From NCBI GenBank assembly GCA_024998565.1, contig JACOEM010000008.1, positions 1-64,000 on the forward strand: a stretch of 64,000 nt of DNA, in the 5' to 3' direction. Below are positions 32,721 to 47,609 of the stretch, piece after piece. The stretch comes from Nitrospira sp. GTDB taxonomy: Bacteria; Nitrospirota; Nitrospiria; Nitrospirales; Nitrospiraceae. Numbering within the stretch: position 1 is the stretch's first letter; every line of letters begins with the position of its first letter. The notes under the pieces were generated by a model. The model had not been told where the DNA came from. It saw only the letters and a program-made list of their open reading frames with translations, and did not search any database. Both the position numbers and the translations under genes were made by a program.

Positions 32721-33653
32721 TCAGGCCTCACCGACCACCTTCAGTTCCAATTCCAGCTTCACGCCCGACACCTTTTTCACGGCCGCGCGAACCTTCTTGA
32801 TCAAGGCCAGCACATCGGCCGCGCGCGCATGGCCGACGTTCACCATAAAATTCGCGTGCTTGTCCGAGACCTGTGCATCTCCGATGCGGGCCCCCTTCAG
32901 GCCCGCCGCGTCCACCAGGCGACCGGCGGAGTCCTGCGGAGGGTTCTTAAACACGCACCCGGCGCTCGGCAAGGTGAGCGGCTGGGTCTGCTTGCGATAT
33001 TGCAGATAGTCCTTCACTGTCTTTTCAATCCGGTCGTGATCGCCGGGCCTCAACTGCACCCAGACTCCCGCCACGATGCCGCGCGGCAGATGCGCCCGTC
33101 GATAACTGAACGGAATATCCGCGGCGGGAATATCCACCACCCGGCCGCGAGGATCTACCATCCGGACGGCCTTGACGGAATCCTTCATTTCACCCAGGCG
33201 TGTGCCTGCATTCATCACGACGCACCCCGCCACGGTCCCGGGAATCCCGGCGCCCCATTCCAAACCGGCGAGTGACCGGCGAATGGCATATCCGATCAAC
33301 GTCGGCATGCCCACGCCCCCTTCTGCATAGAGCACCTGGTCCGGTTCCTGGCGGATGGCTTTGAATTGCCGCAGGCTAACCACGATCCCGCGGATGCCCC
33401 CGTCACGAACGAGCAGATTGGTCCCGCCCACCACAAAGACCGGAACGTGTTCCGCGCGAGCCTGTGCCACCACCCGGCAAAGGTCCTCCACATCGGCCGG
33501 CTCCACCAGGACTTCCGCCGGGCCACCGATGCGGAATGAAGTATAGGCCTGCAGCGAGGCCTCGTACGTGACCGTTCCACGAACCCCTTCAAGAATACGC
33601 GCCCAGTCTTTCCTGGTTCTTGCCGCATGATCTTTGCCCGCCGCACGTGACAC
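32721..33653 (-). CDS. murB: UDP-N-acetylenolpyruvoylglucosamine reductase
   Basis: FAD enzyme that reduces UDP-GlcNAc-enolpyruvate to UDP-MurNAc. SFRIGGPAEVLVEPAD and VVGGTNLLVRDGGIRG form the FAD site; GIPGTVAGCVVMNAG and the catalytic serine in PSAGCVFKNP are present. 310 residues, the type IIb length. Follows murC by about 20 bases. Confidence 0.95.
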   Translation of the reverse strand: MSRAAGKDHAARTRKDWARILEGVRGTVTYEASLQAYTSFRIGGPAEVLVEPADVEDLCRVVAQARAEHVPVFVVGGTNLLVRDGGIRGIVVSLRQFKAIRQEPDQVLYAEGGVGMPTLIGYAIRRSLAGLEWGAGIPGTVAGCVVMNAGTRLGEMKDSVKAVRMVDPRGRVVDIPAADIPFSYRRAHLPRGIVAGVWVQLRPGDHDRIEKTVKDYLQYRKQTQPLTLPSAGCVFKNPPQDSAGRLVDAAGLKGARIGDAQVSDKHANFMVNVGHARAADVLALIKKVRAAVKKVSGVKLELELKVVGEA

Positions 33654-33674
33654 GGTTGTTCGCCTCGTCGCCCT

Positions 33675-35057
33675 CTACGCCGGCAATCGCTCAAGAATCG
33701 CCAATCCCGCTTTCCAGATATCCCCTGCGCCGAGGGTAATCACGAGATCCCCGGATTTCAGGGTCGGCAGCACCTGCTCCGCCAGGGTGTCCTTGCGCTC
33801 CACGAAGGTGGCCGAAGGATGCCCGGCCGCCTGCACCGCCTCCACCAGCTTCGCGCCGGACACGCCGGGAATGGGCTGTTCACCCGCCGCATAAATTTCC
33901 GTCATGAAGAGCGCATCCGCCTGGTCGAACGCATGGGCGAATTCCTGCATCAGATCGCGAGAACGGCTGTAGCGATGGGGCTGGAACAACACGACCACGC
34001 GTCGATCCCACCCCTGCTTCGCGGCCGCGATCGTGGCCCGTACCTCGGTCGGATGATGCCCATAATCGTCCACCACCATGATGCCGGACTTCTCCCCGCG
34101 CAGGTGGAACCGTCGCTCCACCCCGCTGAACGCCGCGAGGCCTTTCCGAATGAGATCGACCGGAATATCCAACTCCATGCCGATGGCGATCGCGACCAGT
34201 GAATTCGACACATTGTGAATGCCGGGAATGGACAACCTGAACGGGCCGAGGTTGCGTCCGCGGAAAAACACCCGGAACTCCGACCCCCATTGCCGCAAGC
34301 TGATGTCGGTGGCGCGAAAGTCGGGCACATGGCCGGGGTGTTCGTGCAGGCCGAAAGTCTGATAACGCTTCACCACGCGCGGCAACAGACTTCGCAGCCG
34401 TTCATCGTCGGAGCACAACACGGCCAAGCCGTAGAACGGCACCTTGTTCACGAATTCCAGAAAACTGTCGTTCAACTTTTCCATGGTCCCGTAGTGGTCC
34501 AGGTGCTCGCGGTCGATATTGGTGACGGCGGCAATGGTCGGGGCGAGTCGCAGAAACGACCCGTCGCTTTCATCCGCTTCCGCAATGAGCAAATCGCCGC
34601 GCCCCAGCCGCGCATGGCTCCCCAGCGCATTTACCTTGCCCCCGATCACCATGGTGGGATCCAATCCGCCTTGCGCGAGCACATTGGCCACCATCGAGGT
34701 CGTCGTCGTCTTCCCATGGGCGCCGGCGATCGCGACGCCGAACTTGAGCCGCATCAGCTCCGCCAACATCTCCGCACGCGGGATGACCGGAATCTGCCGG
34801 GCTTTTGCCGCGACCACTTCGGGATTAGCGGCGGCCACTGCGGAGGAGATCACCACGACCTGCGCCTCCCCGATATTGGACTCGTGATGACCGATCGCGA
34901 TGCGCCCCCCTAATTCCTCAAGCCGGCGCGTCGTTTCCGACTGACTGAGATCCGATCCACTCACCTTATACCCGAGCGTCAACAACACCTCGGCGATCCC
35001 GCTCATCCCGGATCCGCCGATGCCCACCAGGTGAATATGTTGTGTCTTTCTAAACAT
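33675..35057 (-). CDS. murC: UDP-N-acetylmuramate-L-alanine ligase
   Basis: Adds L-alanine to UDP-MurNAc, the first amino acid of the stem peptide. [17 protein letters not shown] is the N-terminal Rossmann motif, [14 protein letters not shown] the ATP loop, and [15 protein letters not shown] the signature later on. 460 residues from ATG 35057; the frame is open upstream but enters non-homologous sequence and would overlap murG. Confidence 0.96.
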
Positions 35058-35139
35058 CGCCGTCCGCCTTAGCTCCTGTCCTCGAAATGATCGCTGCCCA
35101 CTGCTCCGGTCCTGTTGCTGTGTCTCCCGCTCTCGTTGT

Positions 35140-36261
35140 TCATAGGGCGCGAGCGCTGTCGCTGGCCTCATGGCGCCTCCTTATGACGTCGTAACACTCA
35201 CGAACGATGGTTTCTGCCGCATCGCTGCGTCGCATATTCCAACTCTGTTCACTCATAGTCTGAAGCCGATGCGGCTCCTTCAAAATCTGCAAGACGGTTT
35301 GCGCCAGTCCAGGCCCGTTCAATTCTGCTTGCGGCAGGAGCACTGCGCCGCCCGCCTTCGCCATCACCTCGGCATTCCGCAGTTGATGGTTGTAGATGGC
35401 CGTCGGCAGCGGAATCAAAATCGCCGCCTTTCCGCAGACCGTCAATTCGGCAATCGTCATGGCTCCGGCCCTTGCCACTACAAGATCCGCGCCTCGCAGC
35501 ACCGTGGGCATGTCGTAGAGAAAGGGCACGACCTGCGCGGGCATTCCAGCCTGTTCATACGCGGCCACGACTCTGGCGTGATCCGCCTCGCCGGTTTGAT
35601 GAGTGATGGTAAGCTGGTCCTTCATGGCGCGAAGCAACGGCAAGGCCTCAATCACCGCCGAATTGATGGCCTTCGCTCCCTGACTGCCGCCGAAGACCAA
35701 CAGGTGTCGAGTGGTGCGTTCCTCTGCCCGGCTCGCTGCCGGACCGGCAGCGTCTAGAAACGCCTGCCGAACCGGTGTGCCCACCACGCTGGTTTTGCAT
35801 CGATCGAAAAATGTCACCGTCGATTCGAAGGCCAGGAACACCCGCTGCACGAACGGCGCCACCGCCTTGTTCGCCATGCCGGGATAGGCGTTCGGCTCGA
35901 GAATCACACCGGGGATCCGTCGCAGAAACGCCGCCAGGAGCATCGCCGGACTGGTGTACCCGCCCACGCCGAACACGAGATCCGCACTCTGCTTCTTGAG
36001 GATGCTCATCGATTGCCACAGACTCTTCGGCAAGGTGACCAGGGCCTTCAGGACCTCAAGCGGACTTTTTCCCATCAGAGGATTGGCATCGATGCACTGC
36101 AAGGGAAAGCCTTCGTGGGCCAGCACTTTGCGCTCGATTCCACGCGTGGTGCCGACAAACAGAATCCTGGTGGATGGATCGCGCCGTAAAAATTCCCGTG
36201 CGACGGCGATCGCCGGATAGAGATGGCCTCCCGTTCCACCGGCAGCGATGACCACGTTCAT
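35140..36261 (-). CDS. murG: Lipid II synthase MurG
   Basis: GT28 glycosyltransferase that adds GlcNAc to lipid I on the inner face of the membrane. [16 protein letters not shown] is the N-terminal G-loop; GVGGYTSPA and [15 protein letters not shown] also match, with the nucleotide site [10 protein letters not shown]. 373 residues. Start ATG 36261 overlaps the ftsW stop by four bases (ATGA). The reading frame stays open far upstream through ftsW, but that extension is an out-of-frame artefact. Confidence 0.96.
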
Positions 36262-37466
36262 TCCGTCACCACGCCGCGCTTGCGCACCACCCGCGGCCCA
36301 CTGCTGTCCTGCCCGCCCTGCCGGTCGCGTGAAATGTTCAATAGAATTCCCACGCCGAACAAATTGGCCAACAATGATGAGCCGCCGTAGCTGACAAAGG
36401 GCAGGGTCAAGCCTTTGGTCGGCAGCAGTCCGGTGACCACTCCGACATTGACCAAGGCCTGCATGCCGACAAGGAGCGTGATGCCCATGGCCAGATGCCG
36501 ACCGAACGGGTTCCGGGCACGTCCCGCGATCTGAAAGCCCTTGATGACGAACAGCCCGAACAGCAACACGATGGTCACGGTGCCCATCAGCCCCAATTCT
36601 TCGCCGACCAGAGCCAGCACAAAGTCGGTATGCGCCTCCGGCAAGAAAAACAACTTCTGTTTCCCTTCGCCCAGCCCCACACCGAACGGGCCGCCGCTGC
36701 CGAACGCCAGAAAGGACTGATGGATTTGATATCCGGAGCCGGTCGGATCCTTGGCCCCGTACAGATACTCGATCACGCGTCGACGCCGATAAGGAGACCC
36801 CAGGATTAAGGCCGCCACCGTCGGCAGCGCACAGAGCGCCAGGAGGCCCAGGTGTTTGATTCGCGCCCCTGCCAGAAACAGCATCGTCACGACCACCAGG
36901 CCCATCACCACGACCGTCCCCAGATCGGGCTCCAGCAAAACCAAGCCGCTCAGCAATCCCAACACGATCAGCGGCGGTAAGAGGCCTCGAGAAAAATTGG
37001 TGATCTGATCCTGCTTCTTGGTCAGGTAGGCCGCGATGTATATGGCCACCGCGTACTTTGCCAGCTCGGCCGGCTGAATGTTGAGCGGACCGAGGTGCAA
37101 CCACCGCCGCGCCCCCTTGGCCACGCTGCCGAGCGACGGAACGAGTACCAACACCAGCAACACCGTCGTCCCGAACAGCAGCGGAATCGCCAGCTTCTTC
37201 CATATGCTGTAGTCGATCTTCGAAATGAGATGCATCACCAGGAGGCCGGCGCCCAGCCAGGCCAACTGACGCTTCAGGAAATACCAGGGGTCGTGAAACC
37301 GATTCCCCGCCACCACCGCGCTGGCACTGAACACCATGACCACTCCCACCAGGGCAAGAATGAGCGTCACGGCCAGCAGGGCCGGATCGACCGGCACGCG
37401 TTTGGTCGCCCGCTGGGTCGAGGTCGACCAGGGCAACATCAGTGTTCCGAGCGCATGCTGTGCCAT
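36258..37466 (-). CDS. ftsW: Septal peptidoglycan glycosyltransferase FtsW
   Basis: 402 residues with about ten transmembrane helices; SEDS-family polymerase that makes septal glycan together with FtsI. The catalytic-region aspartate motif lies in LLEPDLGTVVVM and the signature LPFVSYGGSS is near the C-terminus. It lies between murD and murG, the classic site, which separates it from RodA. Confidence 0.95.
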   Translation of the reverse strand: MAQHALGTLMLPWSTSTQRATKRVPVDPALLAVTLILALVGVVMVFSASAVVAGNRFHDPWYFLKRQLAWLGAGLLVMHLISKIDYSIWKKLAIPLLFGTTVLLVLVLVPSLGSVAKGARRWLHLGPLNIQPAELAKYAVAIYIAAYLTKKQDQITNFSRGLLPPLIVLGLLSGLVLLEPDLGTVVVMGLVVVTMLFLAGARIKHLGLLALCALPTVAALILGSPYRRRRVIEYLYGAKDPTGSGYQIHQSFLAFGSGGPFGVGLGEGKQKLFFLPEAHTDFVLALVGEELGLMGTVTIVLLFGLFVIKGFQIAGRARNPFGRHLAMGITLLVGMQALVNVGVVTGLLPTKGLTLPFVSYGGSSLLANLFGVGILLNISRDRQGGQDSSGPRVVRKRGVVTE

Positions 37467-37501
37467 CGATCAGCTGTCGTTCCTCCCACACGGCTCCCGC
37501 T

Positions 37502-38890
37502 TTACGCCGGCAGCCCTTGTACCAGGGCCTTAAACTGCCGGCCCCGGTCTTGATAATCCGCAAACATGTCGAAACTGGCGCAGGCCGGCGAGAGTAAGAC
37601 CACCTCACCGGGCTGCGCCTCGCGAGCAGCAAGCTCCACGGCGTCGCGGAGGGTCGCTGCAGGACGACACCGGTCAAAATCTCCCATCGCATCCTGGATA
37701 CGGCCGGCTGCCTCTCCGATCAAAATCAGCCCTTTCACTCGTTCCCGTATCGCGCCTTCGAGGCGGGAAAAGTCGCCGCCCTTGTCGCGGCCGCCGGCAA
37801 TTAACCAAATCGGCTGGTCTATTCCTTCAAGCGCCTTCAACACCGCATCGACATTGGTGCCCTTGGAGTCGTTCACGAAGCGAACCCCGCGACGCTCACG
37901 TACCACCTCCAAGGCATGTTCCAGCCCGGGGAAGGATCGCAGCACGGCGCGAATGGCCTCGATCGGACAACCGCAGAGCAGACCATACGTCACCGCCGCC
38001 ATCACATTTTCGACGTTATGGAGGCCGATCAGCCGCATGTCGCTCCGGCGGCAGATTTCCTCCCGCCGTCCGCGAACCGTCGTCACAATCAGGTCGCCGT
38101 CAAGCACCGTCGCCCCCGCCACACCCGACACCGTGGCTCCGCTACGGCTGAAGCCCAGGACGGTACCCTTGGTGCGCCCGCGCAGCGCGGCCACACGCGC
38201 ATCATCGAGATTGAACAGCGAATAGTCGCCGGCCGTTTGGTTGGCGAAGATGTTCGCCTTGGCCGCCACATAGTCCTCCACCGAGGCATAGCGGTCCATA
38301 TGATCTAAGGTCACATTCAAGATCGAGGCAATCCAGGGATGGAACTGCTCCATCGTCTCAAGTTGGAAACTGGAGACTTCCAGCACCACATACTCATAGG
38401 GTGCGACCGTCCCCGCCTTCGCCTGCACCGAGGCCAAGGCCGCCTCGCTGGCGGCAATTCCCAGATTGCCCCCGACAAAAGCGCGCTTGCCGCTCTCCTG
38501 CAGAAACTTGCCGATCAGCGTCACCGTCGTGCTCTTCCCGTTGGTCCCGGTCACGGCCACCACCGGTGCCGTCAAAAAGCGGGAGGCCAATTCCAGCTCC
38601 CCGATGACCCGGACCCCGCGGGCCCTCACCCGATTGAGCGCATCGAGTTGAGTCGGCACACCCGGGCTGATCACGACAAGATCGGCCCCTTCGAGGGCGG
38701 ACTCATACTGCGCCCCCACCTTCACCGCGATGCTCGTCCGGTCCACCTGCGACAGGATGGCGGTCAGTTCATGCGCTTCCTTCCGGTCGGCCAGGGTGAC
38801 CCGAGCCCCGAGATGGCTCAACAGGCGCGCCGCGCCCACTCCGCTTCGGGCTAGTCCGACCACCGTGACTTGAAGATCTTTGACGTTCAC
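37502..38890 (-). CDS. murD: UDP-N-acetylmuramoylalanine-D-glutamate ligase
   Basis: Adds D-glutamate to UDP-MurNAc-L-Ala. N-terminal [18 protein letters not shown] loop [15 protein letters not shown] and [17 protein letters not shown] in the C-terminal domain identify it. 462 residues. The start is GTG at 38890, ten bases after the mraY stop. Confidence 0.95.
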
Positions 38891-38900
38891 TGCTGTTCGC

Positions 38901-39977
38901 CTACCGTAATTTGAGCGTGCTCAAGCTGAGCAACGCCAGCAAAATGGCAATGATCCACAGACGCACCACGACCTTCGGCTCGTCCCAACCCTTCATCTCG
39001 AAGTGATGGTGAATGGGCGCCATATTGAAGATACGTTTTCCCCGGAGCTTATAGGACCCCACTTGCAGGATGACCGACAAGGCTTCAATGACGAAGACGC
39101 CGCCGACCAACAGCAGCAGCAGTTCATGCTTGCTGATCACGGCCACGGTGCCGAGTGCCGCCCCCAACGGAAGCGAGCCCACATCGCCCATGAAGACGGA
39201 GGCCGGATAGGTGTTGAACCACAAAAAGCCCAGACTCGATCCCAAAATGGCTCCGGTAAAGATGGCGATTTCTCCCGCACCTTCGATGTAGGGGATAAGC
39301 AAATATTCGGCCATCACACGGTTCCCGGTCACATAAGCCACGATCGTATAGGCCAGTGAGGCGATCATGACCGGACCGATCGCCAGCCCATCAAGCCCGT
39401 CCGTCAAATTGACGGCGTTGGAGCTGCCGACAATGACAAGAATGACGAACACAATGTAGAACCAGCCGAGGTCGGGCGTGAAAAATTTAAAGAACGGCAC
39501 GCTGAGTTTCGTCGTATAGCTGGGCAAGGTGTAGAGAAACACACCGATGGTCAGCGCGACCAGAATCTGGCAGGTGAATTTTTGTGCCGCCGAGAGGCCT
39601 TTCGATTGGCGCTTGATGAACTTGAGATAGTCATCTGCGAACCCGATCGCGCCGAAGCCCACCGTCGCCACCACGACCAACCACACATACCGGTTGGTCA
39701 TATCGGCCCACAGCAGGGTGGATAAGACCACTGCGAAGATAATGAGAATTCCGCCCATGGTCGGGGTGCCGCTCTTGGCCAAATGCCGCTTCGGCCCATC
39801 GTCGCGAATCTGCTGCCCGAGCTTAATCTCCTGCAGCTTGCGGATCACCCAGGGAGCCATCACAAAGGCGATCAGAAACGCCGTGACCGCCGCATAGATA
39901 ATCCGGAAGCTCTGATATCGAAAGACGTTCAGGAATGAAAACTGTGTGTGAAGGGGGTATAGCCAGTTGTATAACAT
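38901..39977 (-). CDS. mraY: Phospho-MurNAc-pentapeptide transferase
   Basis: Integral membrane enzyme that makes lipid I from UDP-MurNAc-pentapeptide and undecaprenyl phosphate. 358 residues with about ten helices. [19 protein letters not shown] (catalytic aspartates), [20 protein letters not shown] (NLTDGLDG is the key part) and [11 protein letters not shown] are all family signatures. Lies between murF and murD. Confidence 0.97.
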
Positions 39978-40041
39978 CCTACGGCATCTTTGCCCGCCAT
40001 GGATCGGCGGGCCCTAAAGTTCCTCTGTATGTGCCTGTCGA

Positions 40042-41505
40042 CTAGCAGGCCTTTCGTGCGACCCGTCGCATTCCCGTCACGGCTTCCACGACCTGTTCCA
40101 TGCGCATACCCCGCGAAGCCTTGACCAGCACCACGTCGCCTTGCCGAACCATCCGCGCCAGGGCCGCGGCTGCCGCCGGCGCATCGGGCAATTCCGTGAT
40201 GTGGTCGGACGCCATCCCGGCCTGCCGGGCGCCTTCGGCCAACTCTCGGCCCAATACGCCGCAAGCCAGCAGATGTCCGATCCCTTGCGAGGCCAGAAAC
40301 GCCCCCACTTCCCGATGCATCCGCTTGCTGTCCGTGCCCAGCTCCAGCATGTCGCCCAGCGCCGCAATCGACCGTTTTCCCCGGCCGAGCTCCGCCAGCA
40401 GTTGGACGGCCGCTTTCATCGAGGCCGGATTCGCGTTGTAGCAATCGTTGATCACCTGCACCCCGTGGGAGAGGCTGATCTGCGATCTCATCGCGGCCGG
40501 ACGAAACTTCGCCAGCCCCTCGGCGATGGCCGTTCCCGATAACCCCAACGCATACCCGACCGCAGCCGCCGCGAGGGCATTGCTCACATTGTGTTGCCCC
40601 TGCGTCCGGATGCGAATTTCCGTCTGACGACTCTTTCCCGGCACCACCAGGCCGAACACCGTTCCGCCTTTTTCATCGACCCGGATATTGGCCGCGCGAA
40701 TGGCGGCTTTGGGAGACACCCCAAAGGCCACGACCCGGCACTGCGCACGGGCCGCAAGATAGTCAAAATATTCATCGTCGGCGTTCAACACCACCGCTCC
40801 GTCCTGAGGCAAATGGTCGAGCAACTCAGCCTTGGCCTGCGCGGACCCTTCCATACTGCCGAAAAACTCCAAATGGTCCGGGCCGATGTTGGTGATCACG
40901 CCGATCGTCGGCCTCGCGATTTCGCATAGCCGGGTGGTCTGCCCCTGCTGATCCACCCCCATTTCAATGACGGCAGCCTGATGGCGAGGCGCCAATTGAA
41001 ACAGGGTCTGCGGGACGCCGATTCGATTATTGAGATTGCCCTCGGTCTTGAGCGTTTTCCAGCGCTGTGCCACCACCTGGGCGACCATTTCTTTCGTCGT
41101 CGTCTTGCCGTTGCTCCCCGTAATGGCAATGACCGGGATGGGAAACCGGTTGCGATAGTGCGTGGCCAGGCGTTGGTAGGCCTCAAGCGTATCTCTTACC
41201 CCGAGCAGCATGGGCACGCCGGCACGTTTCGGCGCCGGAGGTAAGCGATAGTCCGCCTGCACGATGGCACAGACCGCCCCCTGGGCCAACACCTTCGGCA
41301 CGAAGGTATGCGCGTCAAACCGCTCGCCCTGGAAGGCGATGAAGAGATCGCCTTTGCGCACCACCCGCGAATCGGTCACCACACGACGAATGCGTTGTTT
41401 CAAATCCTGAGGCGTGACGCCGGCCGGCGGCCTGACACTCAAGACCTCGCAGATTTCCTCGACCGTAAACAGCGCCATCACACCGCGATTCCCATGCTCC
41501 CGCAT
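40042..41505 (-). CDS. murF: UDP-MurNAc-tripeptide D-alanyl-D-alanine ligase
   Basis: Adds D-Ala-D-Ala to complete the stem pentapeptide. ATP loop AITGSNGKTTTKEMVA and INDCYNANPASMKAAV are characteristic. 487 residues from ATG 41505, chosen because GAGGA is spaced six bases upstream; the second ATG (41478, MALFTVEEICEV) aligns better with some relatives but has a poorer ribosome-binding site. Confidence 0.95.
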   Translation of the reverse strand: MREHGNRGVMALFTVEEICEVLSVRPPAGVTPQDLKQRIRRVVTDSRVVRKGDLFIAFQGERFDAHTFVPKVLAQGAVCAIVQADYRLPPAPKRAGVPMLLGVRDTLEAYQRLATHYRNRFPIPVIAITGSNGKTTTKEMVAQVVAQRWKTLKTEGNLNNRIGVPQTLFQLAPRHQAAVIEMGVDQQGQTTRLCEIARPTIGVITNIGPDHLEFFGSMEGSAQAKAELLDHLPQDGAVVLNADDEYFDYLAARAQCRVVAFGVSPKAAIRAANIRVDEKGGTVFGLVVPGKSRQTEIRIRTQGQHNVSNALAAAAVGYALGLSGTAIAEGLAKFRPAAMRSQISLSHGVQVINDCYNANPASMKAAVQLLAELGRGKRSIAALGDMLELGTDSKRMHREVGAFLASQGIGHLLACGVLGRELAEGARQAGMASDHITELPDAPAAAAALARMVRQGDVVLVKASRGMRMEQVVEAVTGMRRVARKAC

Positions 41506-41523
41506 GCGTTTCCTCGCTCAGGC

Positions 41524-43032
41524 TCAGGCTCCGGATCGGAGCGCCTCGATCGTGGCGCGCGCGACTTCCCGATCGTCGAAGTGATGTTTCGTGGTTCCCA
41601 CGATCTGGTAATCTTCGTGCCCCTTCCCCGCGATCAACACCATATCCCCCGGCTTCGCCTCACGAATGGCAGCCTCGATGGCCTCCCCACGATCCGCAAC
41701 CATGCGATACCGCACATGACCCCGGTCCGCCAGCGCTTCTTTGACTCCGACCTCGACCTCGCGCAGGATCGCCGCAGGATCTTCGGTACGCGGGTTATCC
41801 GATGTCAGGATCACCACATCACTATACTGCACGGCGGCCCGCCCCATTTTAGGGCGCTTGGTCCGGTCACGGTCCCCGCCGCACCCGAAGACAGTGATGA
41901 TGCGCCCCGTGCGAAGCGCCTGGGCTGCGGTCAACAACCGAACCAGCGCGTCTTCGGTATGCGCATAGTCCACCACCACGGAAAAGTTCTGACCGGCTTC
42001 GACGAGTTCGAATCGCCCCGGCACGTTCGTGACCGTCTCGACGGCAGATCGGACTTGATCGAGCGTCAGCCCTTCATGCAACACCACTCCGATGGCAGCC
42101 AGAAGGTTCGAGACATTGTGCTCTCCGACCAGACGGCTCTTGATCTGGCAGATTCCGACAGGACTGCGCAACGTAAAACTGGTGCCGGCCGGCGAGAGGC
42201 TCACGCCCTCGGCGTAAATATCGGCCTCCCGGTGCAAGCCGTAGGTCCAGACCGGAACGGTGCAAGCCGCACGAATCCGCGCGCCCCATGGATCGTCCAC
42301 ATTGATGATTGCGCGCTTCCGCTGCTTCACCGCGCCCGCCTTTCCCAACTCGACAAAAAGTTTCAGCTTCGCCTGGAAATACCGTTCCATGTCGAGATGA
42401 AAGTCGAGGTGGTCCTGCGTGAGATTCGTAAAGACGGCGACGTCGAACTCGGATCCGGCCGTCCGATCCAAGGCCAGCGCATGCGACGAGACCTCCATCA
42501 CCACCGTATCCAACCTTGCATCGCGCATTCGTGCAAATAATTTCTGTAACTCCAACGCGCCCGGCGTCGTGTGCGATGCCGGAATCGACTCCTTCCCGAC
42601 GAGATAAGCGACCGTCCCGATGAGGCCGACCCGGCGCTGTGCGGCCTCCAGCATGGTCTTGACGACATAGGTCGTGGTGGTCTTTCCATTGGTACCCGTC
42701 ACGCCGATCATCCGTAACGAGGATGACGGATCTCCGTAGAACCGGCTGCCGAGAATCCCGAGCGCGGCGCGCGAGTCCTCCACACGGACGCAGGGAATCG
42801 CACCGACATTGTCGTTTCGTTGCACCACGACAGCCGCCGCGCCTGCAGCAACCACCCGGTCCATAAACTGATGACCATCGACGCGCTCCCCAGGCACAGC
42901 GACGAAGAGCGACCCGGGGCCCACGGTTCGGGAATCATCAGTCAGGTCGGCAATGGTCACGCGCTGGTCTCCGTTCCGTTCCAGCACTCCGAGGCGCCCG
43001 TGTATCGGACTGATCAATTCATCGAGTGTCAT
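41524..43032 (-). CDS. murE: UDP-MurNAc-L-Ala-D-Glu: third-residue amino acid ligase
   Basis: Adds the third amino acid of the stem peptide. ATP loop GVTGTNGKTTTTYVV and the substrate-specificity motif TSDNPRTEDP are visible; the DNPR form is that of meso-diaminopimelate-adding enzymes, as expected for a Gram-negative. 502 residues. The start is at MTLDELISPIHG, one base after the ftsI stop. Confidence 0.95.
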   Translation of the reverse strand: MTLDELISPIHGRLGVLERNGDQRVTIADLTDDSRTVGPGSLFVAVPGERVDGHQFMDRVVAAGAAAVVVQRNDNVGAIPCVRVEDSRAALGILGSRFYGDPSSSLRMIGVTGTNGKTTTTYVVKTMLEAAQRRVGLIGTVAYLVGKESIPASHTTPGALELQKLFARMRDARLDTVVMEVSSHALALDRTAGSEFDVAVFTNLTQDHLDFHLDMERYFQAKLKLFVELGKAGAVKQRKRAIINVDDPWGARIRAACTVPVWTYGLHREADIYAEGVSLSPAGTSFTLRSPVGICQIKSRLVGEHNVSNLLAAIGVVLHEGLTLDQVRSAVETVTNVPGRFELVEAGQNFSVVVDYAHTEDALVRLLTAAQALRTGRIITVFGCGGDRDRTKRPKMGRAAVQYSDVVILTSDNPRTEDPAAILREVEVGVKEALADRGHVRYRMVADRGEAIEAAIREAKPGDMVLIAGKGHEDYQIVGTTKHHFDDREVARATIEALRSGA

Positions 43033-43033
43033 A

Positions 43034-44752
43034 TCAGGATTCAAGGCCGGCCATCGCCAGCTTGACCGGTTCGTCCACCGCCACACCCAGATAATTCAGC
43101 ACCTGCTCGCCGACCCGACGGAATACCGGGGCCGCTACGACGCCCCCCCAACCCTCGCCGCGAGGTTCGTCGATCACGACGATCATCGCCAACCGCGGAT
43201 CTTCCGCCGGCACATACCCGAGAAACGACCCGACCAGCAGCGTGGAAGAGTAGGCGCCGGTGCGGGGATCCACTTTTTGTGCCGTACCGGTCTTACCGGC
43301 CACCCGGAATCCGGGGATCGCTGCTTTCCCTCCGGTGCCGTTCGTCACCACACCCTCGAGCAGCGTCGTCAACGTCCTGGCCGTATCAGCGGAGATGACC
43401 CGCCGTTTCGCTTGCGGCATGGTTTGCGCCACCAACTGTCCCTTCGCATTACGGATCTCGGAGACCACGTGAGGCTTCATCAACACGCCCCCGTTTGCAA
43501 TGGCTGAGATGGCGGTCACCATCTGCAGCGGCGTCACGCCGACCTCCTGCCCCATCGAAATCGAAGCCAGGGAACGCTTGCCCCACTGGCGCGGTCCTCG
43601 CAGCAATCCGGCCGTTTCACCCGGCAAATCAATGCCGGTCTTGTCGCCGAACCCGAACTCCTTGAGGTAGTCGAAGACCCGCCATTCACCCAAGGCCATG
43701 CCGACCTTCGCCGCGCCGATATTGCTCGATTTCTGGATCATCTGCGCAAAGGTCATCCAACCGGATTTTTCGTGATCGTGAATCACGGTATTAGCGATTG
43801 AGAATTGCCCGTTCTCTCCATAGATCATGCTCCCGGGCGTCATCACCTTCTCCTCAAGCGCCGCCGCCGCAATCACCGTCTTCATGGTGGACCCGGGCTC
43901 ATAGGTATCCGTCAACGCGCGATTGCGCCACCGGTCCGGGGCCAGCGCTCCGACCGTGTTGGGGTCGAATCGCGGACTGACCGCCATGGCCAACACGGCC
44001 CCGGTTTTCGGGTCCATCACAATGATCGTGCCTGATTTGGCATTGGATCGGCTCACGGCCTCATCCAGCTCTTTCTCCGCGATGTACTGAATCACTTCAT
44101 CCACAGTGAGGGTCAGGCTGTGCCCGGCCGCTGCGCCTTCCTCATTGAGCCCTTTCGGAAATACGGCACGCCCCAAGGCATCGCGCTGCAAGACCACCGC
44201 CCGCTTCTCGCCACGCAGGTACTGCTCATATCGCAGCTCCACCCCTTCCAATCCACGATCATCCATGCCGGCAAATCCCAGCACGTGCGACAGCAGCGGC
44301 CCCTTGGGATAGAAGCGGCGCCCTTCCATCACAACTCCGACGCCATCGAGGGCCAGGCGCTCAAGCCGCCGCCCCTGCTCCGGTTCCAACTTGCGCGCCA
44401 GCCACACAAAGTGTTTTTCCTGCTTCAGTTTTTTTTCGAGCTCCGTCGCCTTAACGTGCAAGATCGGCGAGAGGTTACGCGCAGTGACGCCCGGATTCCC
44501 GAGAGAAGCCGGAACGCCGAATACGGACGGCACATCCATATTCATCGCCAATACTTTACTGTTTCGATCGTAGATCGTCCCGCGCGCGCCTTCCAGCGTG
44601 ACATTTTTCTGATGCTGCCGATCGGCCTTCACGGTCAGCTCCGCCGACTGCATCACCTGGAGATTCACCAGACGGACAATGACCAGCGCGAACGCGACCC
44701 CCAGCCCGCAGGCCACTACAATACGACGACTGCGAAAAGGGGTCGAAGCCAC
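43034..44752 (-). CDS. ftsI: Septal transpeptidase FtsI (PBP3)
   Basis: 572-residue class B penicillin-binding protein that cross-links septal peptidoglycan. One N-terminal helix (about 11-32), a dimerisation domain starting at RGTIYDRN, and the transpeptidase domain with SxxK STMK (288-291), SxN SSN (342-344) and KTG (487-489). No PASTA domains. It begins at the last base of ftsL. Confidence 0.96.
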   Translation of the reverse strand: MASTPFRSRRIVVACGLGVAFALVIVRLVNLQVMQSAELTVKADRQHQKNVTLEGARGTIYDRNSKVLAMNMDVPSVFGVPASLGNPGVTARNLSPILHVKATELEKKLKQEKHFVWLARKLEPEQGRRLERLALDGVGVVMEGRRFYPKGPLLSHVLGFAGMDDRGLEGVELRYEQYLRGEKRAVVLQRDALGRAVFPKGLNEEGAAAGHSLTLTVDEVIQYIAEKELDEAVSRSNAKSGTIIVMDPKTGAVLAMAVSPRFDPNTVGALAPDRWRNRALTDTYEPGSTMKTVIAAAALEEKVMTPGSMIYGENGQFSIANTVIHDHEKSGWMTFAQMIQKSSNIGAAKVGMALGEWRVFDYLKEFGFGDKTGIDLPGETAGLLRGPRQWGKRSLASISMGQEVGVTPLQMVTAISAIANGGVLMKPHVVSEIRNAKGQLVAQTMPQAKRRVISADTARTLTTLLEGVVTNGTGGKAAIPGFRVAGKTGTAQKVDPRTGAYSSTLLVGSFLGYVPAEDPRLAMIVVIDEPRGEGWGGVVAAPVFRRVGEQVLNYLGVAVDEPVKLAMAGLES

Positions 44753-45084
44753 TATCGCGCTCTCCGCGTGACGATGTTTTTGGCGATCCGCACCTCACCC
44801 TCCGCCACGACCGGATTCGCCGGCGCTTCCGGCTCGATGTTGATGACGACGACCTGGCCCTTTTCCGGCTGCATCATCCCCAACTTGTCGCTAGCCAGAC
44901 GCGCAATCCGCTCAGGTGCCGTGAGGCCGGAGAGCTTCACGCGTAATTCATCGCGCTCGCGCTCGAGGAGGACCTTCTGCGCCTTCAGCCGTTCGATGTG
45001 GTAGCCGATGCGGACGATGTCCACCCGCTCCCACACAAAGAGCAACACCAGCGATGTGACCGCGGCAAATGCGACGGCTTTCAT
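44752..45084 (-). CDS. ftsL: Cell division protein FtsL
   Basis: 110-residue bitopic protein with an N-terminal helix (AVAFAAVTSLVLLFVW) followed by a short coiled coil (IERLKAQKVLLERERDEL), the FtsL pattern. Sequence conservation is low in this family, so the identification relies on size, topology and position between rsmH and ftsI, with which it overlaps by four and one bases. Confidence 0.88.
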   Translation of the reverse strand: MKAVAFAAVTSLVLLFVWERVDIVRIGYHIERLKAQKVLLERERDELRVKLSGLTAPERIARLASDKLGMMQPEKGQVVVINIEPEAPANPVVAEGEVRIAKNIVTRRAR

Positions 45085-46010
45085 TTCACATACTCCTTGG
45101 AGATCCGCTCCACGACTCGCAACTTTGCGCTCCGTGACCGCGGGTTTCGGCTACGCTCGTTTTCCGAGGCGATGACCGGTTTTTTCGTCAACACCCTCAC
45201 CGACGCTTCGGGGCCGTTCGCCAGCGCCCGAAACGTATGCTTCACGATCCTGTCTTCGAGCGAATGAAACGAGACGGCACAGACACGCCCGCCCGGCGCC
45301 AGAATGTCCACCGCATCACGGAGCGCCGGCTCTAACACGTCCAACTCACGATTCACGGCAATTCGCAACGCCTGAAAGGTGCGTGTGGCACAATGAATGC
45401 GTCCGTGCCGATACGAAGCCGGCACCGCGCGCTCCACCACCGCCGCCAACTGCCAGGTTGTTCCGATCACCCCCTGCATCCGGGCCTGCACGATCGCGCG
45501 GGCAATTCGGCGCGAGTATCGCTCCTCACCAAGCTGATAGATCAGATCGGCCAACTCGGTCTCGGGCAGATCACGAACCAGATCCGCAGCCGTGCGTCCT
45601 TCGCGCTGATCCATGCGCATATCCAGCGGGCCGTCTTCCCGAAAACTGAAACCTCGCTCCGCACGATCGAGCTGGGGCGAGGAGACACCCAGATCGAAAA
45701 TCACGCCATCCACGCGCGACACCCCGCTCCCACCGATCAACGCTTTCAGGTCGCAGAAATTTCCATGTCGGAAATGCACTCGATGCGCGACCTCTCGCAG
45801 ACGCATTTGTGACTCCGCGAGCGCCGCAGCATCGCGATCAATTCCCACAAGGATGCCATCTGGAGCGGAGCGATCGAGGAGGCGAGCAGCGAGCCCTGCA
45901 TATCCAAGAGTGCAGTCCACGTAAACACCACCTGGTTTACACTGCAACCAGAACAAGATCTCTTCGACTAAAACCGGCTCATGGGAATCGCGAGCAGAAT
46001 CTATTTCCAT
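45081..46010 (-). CDS. rsmH: 16S rRNA (cytosine-1402-N4)-methyltransferase
   Basis: Methylates C1402 of 16S rRNA with S-adenosylmethionine. HEPVLVEEILFWL, YVDCTLGYAGLAARLL (SAM site), ILVGIDRDAAAL and VSFHSLEDRIVKHTF are diagnostic. About 309 residues from ATG 46010. In-frame ATGs at 46034 and 46058 exist; 46034 lies almost exactly at the predicted transcript start, so leaderless initiation there is possible. First gene of the dcw cluster here; mraZ, usually just upstream, is absent. Confidence 0.94.
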   Translation of the reverse strand: MEIDSARDSHEPVLVEEILFWLQCKPGGVYVDCTLGYAGLAARLLDRSAPDGILVGIDRDAAALAESQMRLREVAHRVHFRHGNFCDLKALIGGSGVSRVDGVIFDLGVSSPQLDRAERGFSFREDGPLDMRMDQREGRTAADLVRDLPETELADLIYQLGEERYSRRIARAIVQARMQGVIGTTWQLAAVVERAVPASYRHGRIHCATRTFQALRIAVNRELDVLEPALRDAVDILAPGGRVCAVSFHSLEDRIVKHTFRALANGPEASVRVLTKKPVIASENERSRNPRSRSAKLRVVERISKEYVK

Positions 46011-46014
46011 TTCC

Positions 46015-46029
46015 ACCCACTTCACCCCA
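46015..46029 (-). promoter_or_regulatory. MraZ-box-like TGGG direct repeats
   Basis: On the minus strand TGGGG (46025-46029) and TGGGT (46015-46019) are ten bases apart, with a weaker TGGAA (46005-46009) at the next interval. MraZ is known to bind TGGGN repeats separated by five bases upstream of dcw operons. No mraZ gene is in the window. Confidence 0.4.
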
Positions 46030-46033
46030 CTCA

Positions 46034-46054
46034 TTGGGTGGAGTATACACCCAA
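46034..46054. promoter_or_regulatory. Inverted repeat over the rsmH -10 element
   Basis: TTGGGTG and CACCCAA arms of seven bases flank a seven-base centre (GAGTATA) that contains the -10 element. A protein bound here would block RNA polymerase, so it is a candidate operator for the dcw cluster. Confidence 0.45.
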
Positions 46055-46069
46055 CCAAATGGCTGTCAA
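46042..46069 (-). promoter_or_regulatory. Promoter of the dcw cluster
   Basis: TTGACA (46064-46069) is a perfect -35 and TATACT (46042-46047) a near-perfect -10, with 16 bases between. Transcription would begin near 46035, about 25 bases before the rsmH ATG at 46010. It is the strongest sigma-70-like promoter seen in the window and probably drives rsmH through divIVA. Confidence 0.7.
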
Positions 46070-46106
46070 CAGAATTAACCCCTATTTATCAAGAATATTG
46101 TTCAGT

Positions 46107-46122
46107 TTAGACACATGTCTAA
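46107..46122. promoter_or_regulatory. 16-base palindrome upstream of the dcw promoter
   Basis: TTAGACA and TGTCTAA are perfect seven-base arms around a two-base centre. It lies about 80 bases upstream of the predicted transcript start, an activator-like distance. The protein that would bind it is not recognised. Confidence 0.45.
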
Positions 46123-46145: not shown

Positions 46146-46165
46146 TTATCCACATTTGTGGATAA
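46146..46165. promoter_or_regulatory. Inverted pair of consensus DnaA boxes
   Basis: TTATCCACA (46146-46154), two bases, then TGTGGATAA (46157-46165): two perfect copies of the classical DnaA 9-mer facing each other. A third weaker match, TGTGGGAAA, is at 46169-46177. It lies about 110-130 bases upstream of the dcw transcript start. Confidence 0.55.
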
Positions 46166-46258
46166 GTCTGTGGGAAACTCGCCCACCTTGAAATGATTTT
46201 TGAACACGTTTCTACCAGGAAAAAGCGGGGACTATCAAAAAATCAGATGGATGAAATA

Positions 46259-46294
46259 CCTGCATTTCGATGGTCACGCTCGCCGAAATGCAGG
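46259..46294 (-). terminator. Terminator downstream of asnS
   Basis: CCTGCATTTCG (46259-46269) pairs perfectly over 11 bases with CGAAATGCAGG (46284-46294). On the minus strand a six-T run follows at 46235-46240, about 18 bases beyond the stem. It starts 22 bases after the asnS stop. Confidence 0.6.
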
Positions 46295-46316
46295 CAGAAA
46301 CGGAGGGGGCTCGCTG

Positions 46317-47609
46317 CTATGGGTAGAGTCGATACAACATCCTGGGAAAGGGAATCGTTTCCCGCACATGATCGAGGCCGCAAATCCAGGCCACGGCGCG
46401 CTCAATACCCATTCCAAACCCCGCGTGAGGAACCGAGCCGTACCGACGGAGATCGAGATACCATTGAAACGCCTCAACCGGAAGATGATGCTCCTGAATA
46501 CGCGCCAAAAGTTTTTCGTAAGAATGGATGCGCTGGCCGCCGCCGATGATTTCTCCATAGCCCTCCGGCGCCAACACATCCATACAGAGCGCCAGATCAG
46601 GCCGCTCCGGATCCGTCTCCATATAAAATGCTTTCAAGGCCGCAGGATATCGATGCACAATGACAGGCCGGTCGAATTCATTGGAAAGAATGGTCTCATC
46701 ATCGGCGCCAAAATCGTCACCAGGCTTCGCGGGATTGCCTTTCCGCTGCAGAATAGCGATGGCCTCTTCGTAGGTAATGCGAGGGAACGGCGCCGTCACA
46801 CGCTCCAGCTTCGCGAGATCCCGTTCCAGCAGAAGCAATTCGGCGCGACGACTCTTCAGCACCGCTGCCACAATATGGGAGAGGAACTGTTCAGCCAAAT
46901 CCATCATATCGGGCAATTGCGCAAAGGCCACCTCCGGCTCCACCATCCAAAACTCCATCAAATGCCGTCGCGTCTTGGACTTTTCTGCGCGAAAGGTCGG
47001 ACCAAAACAATACACTTTGCCGAATGCCGCAGCGGTGGCCTCACTATAGAGTTGCCCGCTCTGGGTCAAATAGGCCGTCTCATCAAAGTACTGCGTTTGA
47101 AATAAGGTGGTCGTGCCCTCACAGGCATTCGGCGTGAAAATCGGCGCATCGACCAGCGTAAAACCGTGATCGTCGAAAAAATTCCGGCAGGCTCGAATAA
47201 TTTCATGGCGAATGCGGAGCACGGCATGCTGTCGGCTGGAGCGCAGCCAGAGATGGCGATGCTCCATCAAGAATCCCGTGCCGTGTTCTTTCGGTTGGAT
47301 GGGAAAAGGCTCCGCTACCTGCAACACTTCAAGACGAAGCACGTCGAGCTCATACCCGCCCGGCGCACGCGCATCCTGCCGTAACGTGCCGGTGAGGACG
47401 AGACTGGACTCCTGAGTGAGTTCCGCCGATCGAGCAAACTGCGCCTCACCCACCGTCGCCTTGCTCACGACCGCCTGAATGTCCCCGGTTCCATCCCGAA
47501 CGGTCAGAAAATGGAGTTTTCCCTTGTCACGGCGGCTCCGGAGCCATCCTCGAATCGTCACTTCCTGCCCGGCATGGGCGGCGGCTTCATCGATGTACAT
47601 CACAGGCAT
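46317..47609 (-). CDS. asnS: Asparaginyl-tRNA synthetase
   Basis: Class II synthetase that charges tRNA-Asn. An N-terminal OB-fold ([19 protein letters not shown]) is followed by the catalytic core with [11 protein letters not shown], where the serine-glycine form separates AsnRS from Asp[23 protein letters not shown] (motif 2; [11 protein letters not shown] is the key part) and [15 protein letters not shown] (motif 3). 430 residues. Ends just before a strong hairpin. Confidence 0.95.

Follow-up and report, generated by a model that had tools for sequence, protein, structure and literature searches.

DnaA binds the ftsL promoter of Bacillus subtilis in vivo and the ftsZ promoter of Caulobacter in vitro, and three DnaA boxes lie upstream of ftsZ in Escherichia coli, within ftsQA (PMC8203912). 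No species is known in which the transcription activity of DnaA sets the timing of cytokinesis (PMC8203912). Here, we describe a putative DnaA-binding element of three boxes upstream of rsmH (mraW), the first gene of the division and cell wall (dcw) cluster, in Nitrospira sp. (assembly GCA_024998565.1). The window, i.e. the whole stretch analysed, comprised 64,000 nucleotides of contig JACOEM010000008.1 (positions 1 to 64,000). As in B. subtilis, where ftsL belongs to the dcw region, and in Caulobacter, DnaA would be placed at a division-gene promoter. The Nitrospira site, from a different phylum, lies before rsmH at a promoter distance conserved genus-wide. With E. coli ftsQA the element shares the presence of three boxes upstream of division genes, but the E. 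coli boxes sit inside genes, whereas the Nitrospira triplet keeps a conserved distance to a promoter.

The Nitrospira phylum, known for its nitrifiers, is environmentally important, and to our knowledge cell-cycle control has been little studied in it. Our literature search found no paper joining DnaA boxes with dcw and mraZ, and only passing mentions of DnaA boxes in Nitrospira. From the comparisons below, we consider it probable that the dcw promoter of the Nitrospira lineage is preceded by a DnaA-binding module of the type found at dnaA promoters, and that this module acts on transcription from it. A position-locked, genus-wide DnaA triplet on the dcw promoter would be a specific and testable connection between replication and division.

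Architecture of the element

An earlier sequence-only reading of the window had reported two exact TTATCCACA boxes facing each other two bases apart, with a third near-match next to them. All three were found, and the third is TTTCCCACA, three bases beyond box II. The element and the predicted promoter consist of the following features; identities are mean pairwise values over 26 genus genomes.

46146..46154, plus strand: DnaA box I, TTATCCACA, exact, promoter-proximal and facing box II; identity 0.98
46157..46165, minus strand: DnaA box II, TTATCCACA (TTGTCCACA in many relatives), exact; identity 0.92
46169..46177, minus strand: box III, TTTCCCACA, one mismatch to TTWTNCACA; identity 1.00
46182..46186, minus strand: GTGGG, nearly invariant in the alignment of relatives, forming an inverted repeat with CCCAC of box III
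46084..46101, minus strand: conserved AT-rich block ACAATATTCTTGATAAAT between triplet and promoter; identity 0.95
46064..46069, minus strand: −35 hexamer TTGACA of the predicted dcw promoter, invariant in the genus
46042..46047, minus strand: −10 hexamer TATACT of the predicted dcw promoter, invariant in the genus

The triplet (46146-46177) has the polarity > < <, with a 2-bp gap separating box I from box II and a 3-bp gap separating box II from box III. Every box lies within one mismatch of TTWTNCACA (0, 0 and 1 for boxes I, II and III, respectively). The facing pair forms the palindrome TTRTCCACANNTGTGGATAA with near-perfect two-fold symmetry. The minus strand between the end of asnS (46317) and the start of rsmH (46010) reads GGTGGGCGAGTTTCCCACAGACTTATCCACAAATGTGGATAAC. 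The promoter prediction, TTGACA-16-TATACT (46069-46042, minus strand), is sigma-70-like and matches 11 of 12 consensus positions. With the predicted dcw transcript start near 46035, the whole triplet spans ~111-142 bp upstream of it; the sequence-only reading gave 110-130 bases. We also observed that the inverted repeat GTGGG...GTTTCCCACA (46169-46186) is nearly invariant, and that box III departs from the consensus in every aligned genome.

Across the 4.13 Mb genome, single exact TTATCCACA sites occur at background frequency: 14 were counted, and 12 for the reversed pattern used as a control. When up to three mismatches were allowed, the inverted pair was found at two places only, the 46146 locus and just upstream of dnaA, and the control gave none. 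The pair is therefore not common in the intergenic DNA of this genome, a possibility that the sequence-only reading had raised against itself.

The same triplet upstream of dnaA

At all 24 dnaA loci read (the genus, G011 from another genus, and two genomes of the genus g15), a triplet matching in polarity and gaps lies just upstream of the gene. A generic triplet search over 29 genomes returned two loci per genome, at rsmH and dnaA, reverse-strand overlaps aside; the reversed control returned none. The dnaA triplet, which is widespread in bacteria, thus shares three boxes, the > < < polarity and the gaps of 2 and 3 bp with the rsmH triplet of the same genomes. The latter, in contrast, is reversed relative to its downstream gene, lies farther from the start codon, and has TTTCCCACA instead of ATGTTCACA as box III.

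Scanning 84,980 species genomes gave at least 118 stretches with the triplet. Among the 80 matches listed, ~67 adjoin dnaA or oriC-region genes (yidC, dnaN, gyrA), some of these neighbours being judged by eye from protein sequence; five lie before rsmH, all of them in Nitrospira, and eight elsewhere. Two loci in Clostridia have the triplet upstream of other genes, uvrA-like in L232 and recG-like in L200, both named by sequence reading.

Since the same triplet precedes dnaA, DnaA is the natural candidate ligand at rsmH, and the DnaA of this genome is ordinary and full-length, with a domain IV that matches 1j1v. Binding of DnaA to the rsmH triplet is very likely on these grounds. The earlier proposal of a DnaA site that ties dcw expression to replication hence gained support as regards the ligand; the tie itself is still a matter of inference.

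Conservation and position relative to the promoter

Allowing three mismatches at most, we detected the composite motif TTTCCCACANNNTTNTCCACANNTGTGGATAA in 28 of 29 Nitrospira genomes and in G011; its control gave no match. It occupies one place per genome; G038 alone has an extra reverse-strand self-match. In G044 and G035 the motif was detected, with a neighbourhood outside the loci read (the G035 copy is at a contig edge), and in the two g15 genomes a weak match is sited upstream of dnaA. For G025, the triplet search gave the dnaA copy only. In 24 of the 25 genus relatives whose DNA upstream of rsmH was read, both facing boxes occupy the corresponding position and neither has more than one mismatch; G020 has a degenerate form. 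Box III is identical in all 26 aligned genus genomes and in G011.

Only 10 of the 29 genus genomes have the perfect TTATCCACA pair, and many others carry TTGTCCACA as one of the boxes. We therefore rejected the perfect palindrome as the conserved unit, which is the three-box architecture. The sequence-only reading would have been refuted by boxes that are not conserved among close relatives; they are conserved.

Box III lies 107-109 bp from the −35 hexamer in the window and 24 of the 25 relatives, 112 bp in G020 and 104 bp in G011. The conserved boxes thus stand at a near-constant distance from the promoter, as would be expected for a gene of the DnaA regulon. The boxes are 92-100% identical and both hexamers 100%, compared with 48% for the 50-column spacer before the AT-rich block. 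A second palindrome, TTAGACATGTGTCTAA (46107-46122), lies between triplet and promoter; as it is common to a few close relatives only, a conserved role for it was rejected.

The triplet goes with the rsmH promoter rather than with asnS, because three relatives (L048, L059, L061) keep it before rsmH with no intact asnS in the upstream DNA read, and G012 lacks it although asnS is upstream. This bears on the idea of an RNA element, either an asnS terminator or a leader hairpin. The strand does fold better than its shuffles (z −2.5), but the triplet persists where no intact asnS is upstream, the predicted dcw transcript begins downstream of the triplet, and symmetry is not required at dnaA, since the facing boxes there differ in sequence. 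Moreover, no terminator-like site was found in the triplet region, and asnS, a gene confirmed by Pfam search, has its own hairpin:

46258..46295, minus strand: terminator-like hairpin after asnS, which ends at 46317

The asnS terminator reading was rejected on the last two points, and we regard an RNA element of either kind as very improbable. Four stretches were compared with Rfam, namely the regions of rsmH and dnaA and two copies of the C4 element described below, and none gave a match.

Possible free-standing DnaA sites

The triplet might instead act on DnaA itself, as a titration site or a reactivating site like the DnaA-reactivating sequences (DARS) of E. coli, with the dcw promoter merely adjoining. 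Its > < < polarity and 3-bp gap between boxes II and III equal those of the DARS1 and DARS2 cores (MG1655 sequence; reviewed in PMC5742627), in which box I is likewise opposite to II and III, and in six long-contig genomes it lies 0.44-0.72 Mb from dnaA. However, the gap between boxes I and II is 5 bp in both E. coli cores, whereas that of the Nitrospira triplet is 2 bp and matches the dnaA-promoter triplet exactly. Nor would a free-standing site need a near-constant distance to a −35 hexamer. On account of this spacing (2 and 3 bp against 5 and 3 bp), we did not assign the triplet to DARS, and we consider an action on DnaA itself rather unlikely.

DARS core gaps were observed elsewhere in the genome. 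A conserved non-coding stretch on contig C4 (G000:C4:169003-169032; L283 near 1496-1530; L279-L287) starts with CACAGAATCTGTGGATAAGC-TGTG, in which a weak box is followed after 5 bp by a perfect DnaA box and after a further 3 bp by TGTG. The DARS-spacing search matched 17 of the 29 genus genomes, 16 of them with the sequence of this stretch. Its second half, CTGCACAAGTTTTAGGCATTGGGG, was present in all 29 genus genomes and in 7 from other genera. In the consensus fold, the covariation term was unfavourable. The stretch is a candidate for either a DARS-like locus or an RNA of unknown kind.

Three DnaA boxes adjoining AT-rich DNA could also be (part of) a second replication origin. Nevertheless, GC skew stays negative through the 64-kb window with no switch at the site, on which ground this reading was rejected; in addition, contig C1 carries dnaA together with boxes of its own. 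We regard a second origin as very improbable.

Proposed regulation of the dcw promoter

Regulation of dcw through the triplet is likely, judging from the DNA comparisons. In the mechanism that we propose, DnaA would nucleate on the facing boxes I and II and then extend to box III. The resulting complex would alter transcription from TTGACA-16-TATACT, 108 bp away (~10 helical turns), probably via DNA bending at the conserved AT-rich block (46084-46101), possibly a site for a bending protein or an activator. Bending at this block is possible because the genome has four genes of the HU/IHF family and IHF has been reported in Nitrospirae (PMC10316083). We lean towards activation or modulation over simple occlusion, as the triplet, being far upstream, has no overlap with the promoter. 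Expression of rsmH, ftsL, ftsI and mur genes would then track the level or nucleotide state of DnaA, like that of dnaA. The arrangement suggests that replication and cell division share DnaA as a regulator at the dcw promoter. More tentatively, and with the balance slightly against it, the dcw promoter may have acquired the dnaA-promoter module by duplication or by its evolving anew; a single DnaA signal would then set both the supply of initiator and the output of division and wall genes, and would hard-wire the division gene cluster to the initiation of replication.

Several observations weigh against, or temper the case for, a DnaA module that acts on dcw transcription. The E. coli ftsQA boxes were found to have no role in ftsZ transcription (PMC8203912). 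Most other genera of the family have no triplet before rsmH, and the dcw cluster in general can thus do without it. The distance from asnS to box III is also fairly constant (~138-152 bp in most genomes, 131-301 bp overall); therefore, we take the constant position of the triplet as supportive, not decisive. Lastly, box III is invariant in a form off the DnaA consensus, TTTCCCACA, with the conserved GTGGG adjoining, neither of which simple DnaA binding requires, and part of the site may for this reason be read by another protein. The palindrome TTRTCCACANNTGTGGATAA or the invariant GTGGG...GTTTCCCACA could in fact be the target of some transcription factor that is not DnaA, given the near-perfect two-fold symmetry and the stronger conservation of box III and GTGGG than of box II. 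We find this improbable as the whole explanation, since in the genus the architecture recurs only before dnaA, and elsewhere it is mostly beside dnaA or oriC genes among the 80 matches listed.

Gene cluster and MraZ-like repeats

A Pfam search confirmed a dcw cluster in the window. Its genes and the repeats just downstream of the −10 hexamer were as follows, the mur genes, mraY and murB together spanning 32721..43086.

45081..46010, minus strand: rsmH (mraW), first dcw gene (PF01795, E 1.4e-106)
44752..45084, minus strand: ftsL-like gene (PF04999/PF04977, just under the curated cut-offs)
43034..44752, minus strand: penicillin-binding protein, ftsI-like (PF00905, PF03717)
41524-43086, 40042-41505, 37502-38890 and 33675-35171, minus strand: four Mur ligases (Pfam search)
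38901-39977, minus strand: mraY (Pfam search)
32721-33653, minus strand: murB (Pfam search)
46007..46030, minus strand: three GTGG/ATGG repeats spaced by 10 bp, resembling MraZ sites (sequence compared with the description in PMC7761207)

The MraZ-controlled dcw promoter of Burkholderia cenocepacia has GTG repeats with a 10-bp period downstream of the −10 hexamer (PMC7761207). The Nitrospira promoter agrees with that description, its GTG-type repeats having the same period and position and overlapping the start. Unlike in the B. cenocepacia type, mraZ is not the first gene of the cluster but lies far outside it (C4:38232; G000:C4:38034-38441), rsmH being on contig C8, and a DnaA triplet is upstream. 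We also located mraZ in 7 further genomes; where these consist of a single contig, mraZ and rsmH have widely separated coordinates. Inspection by eye showed no MraZ-like repeats ahead of mraZ itself. As the start-site repeats resemble described MraZ sites, the dcw promoter of Nitrospira may integrate DnaA and MraZ.
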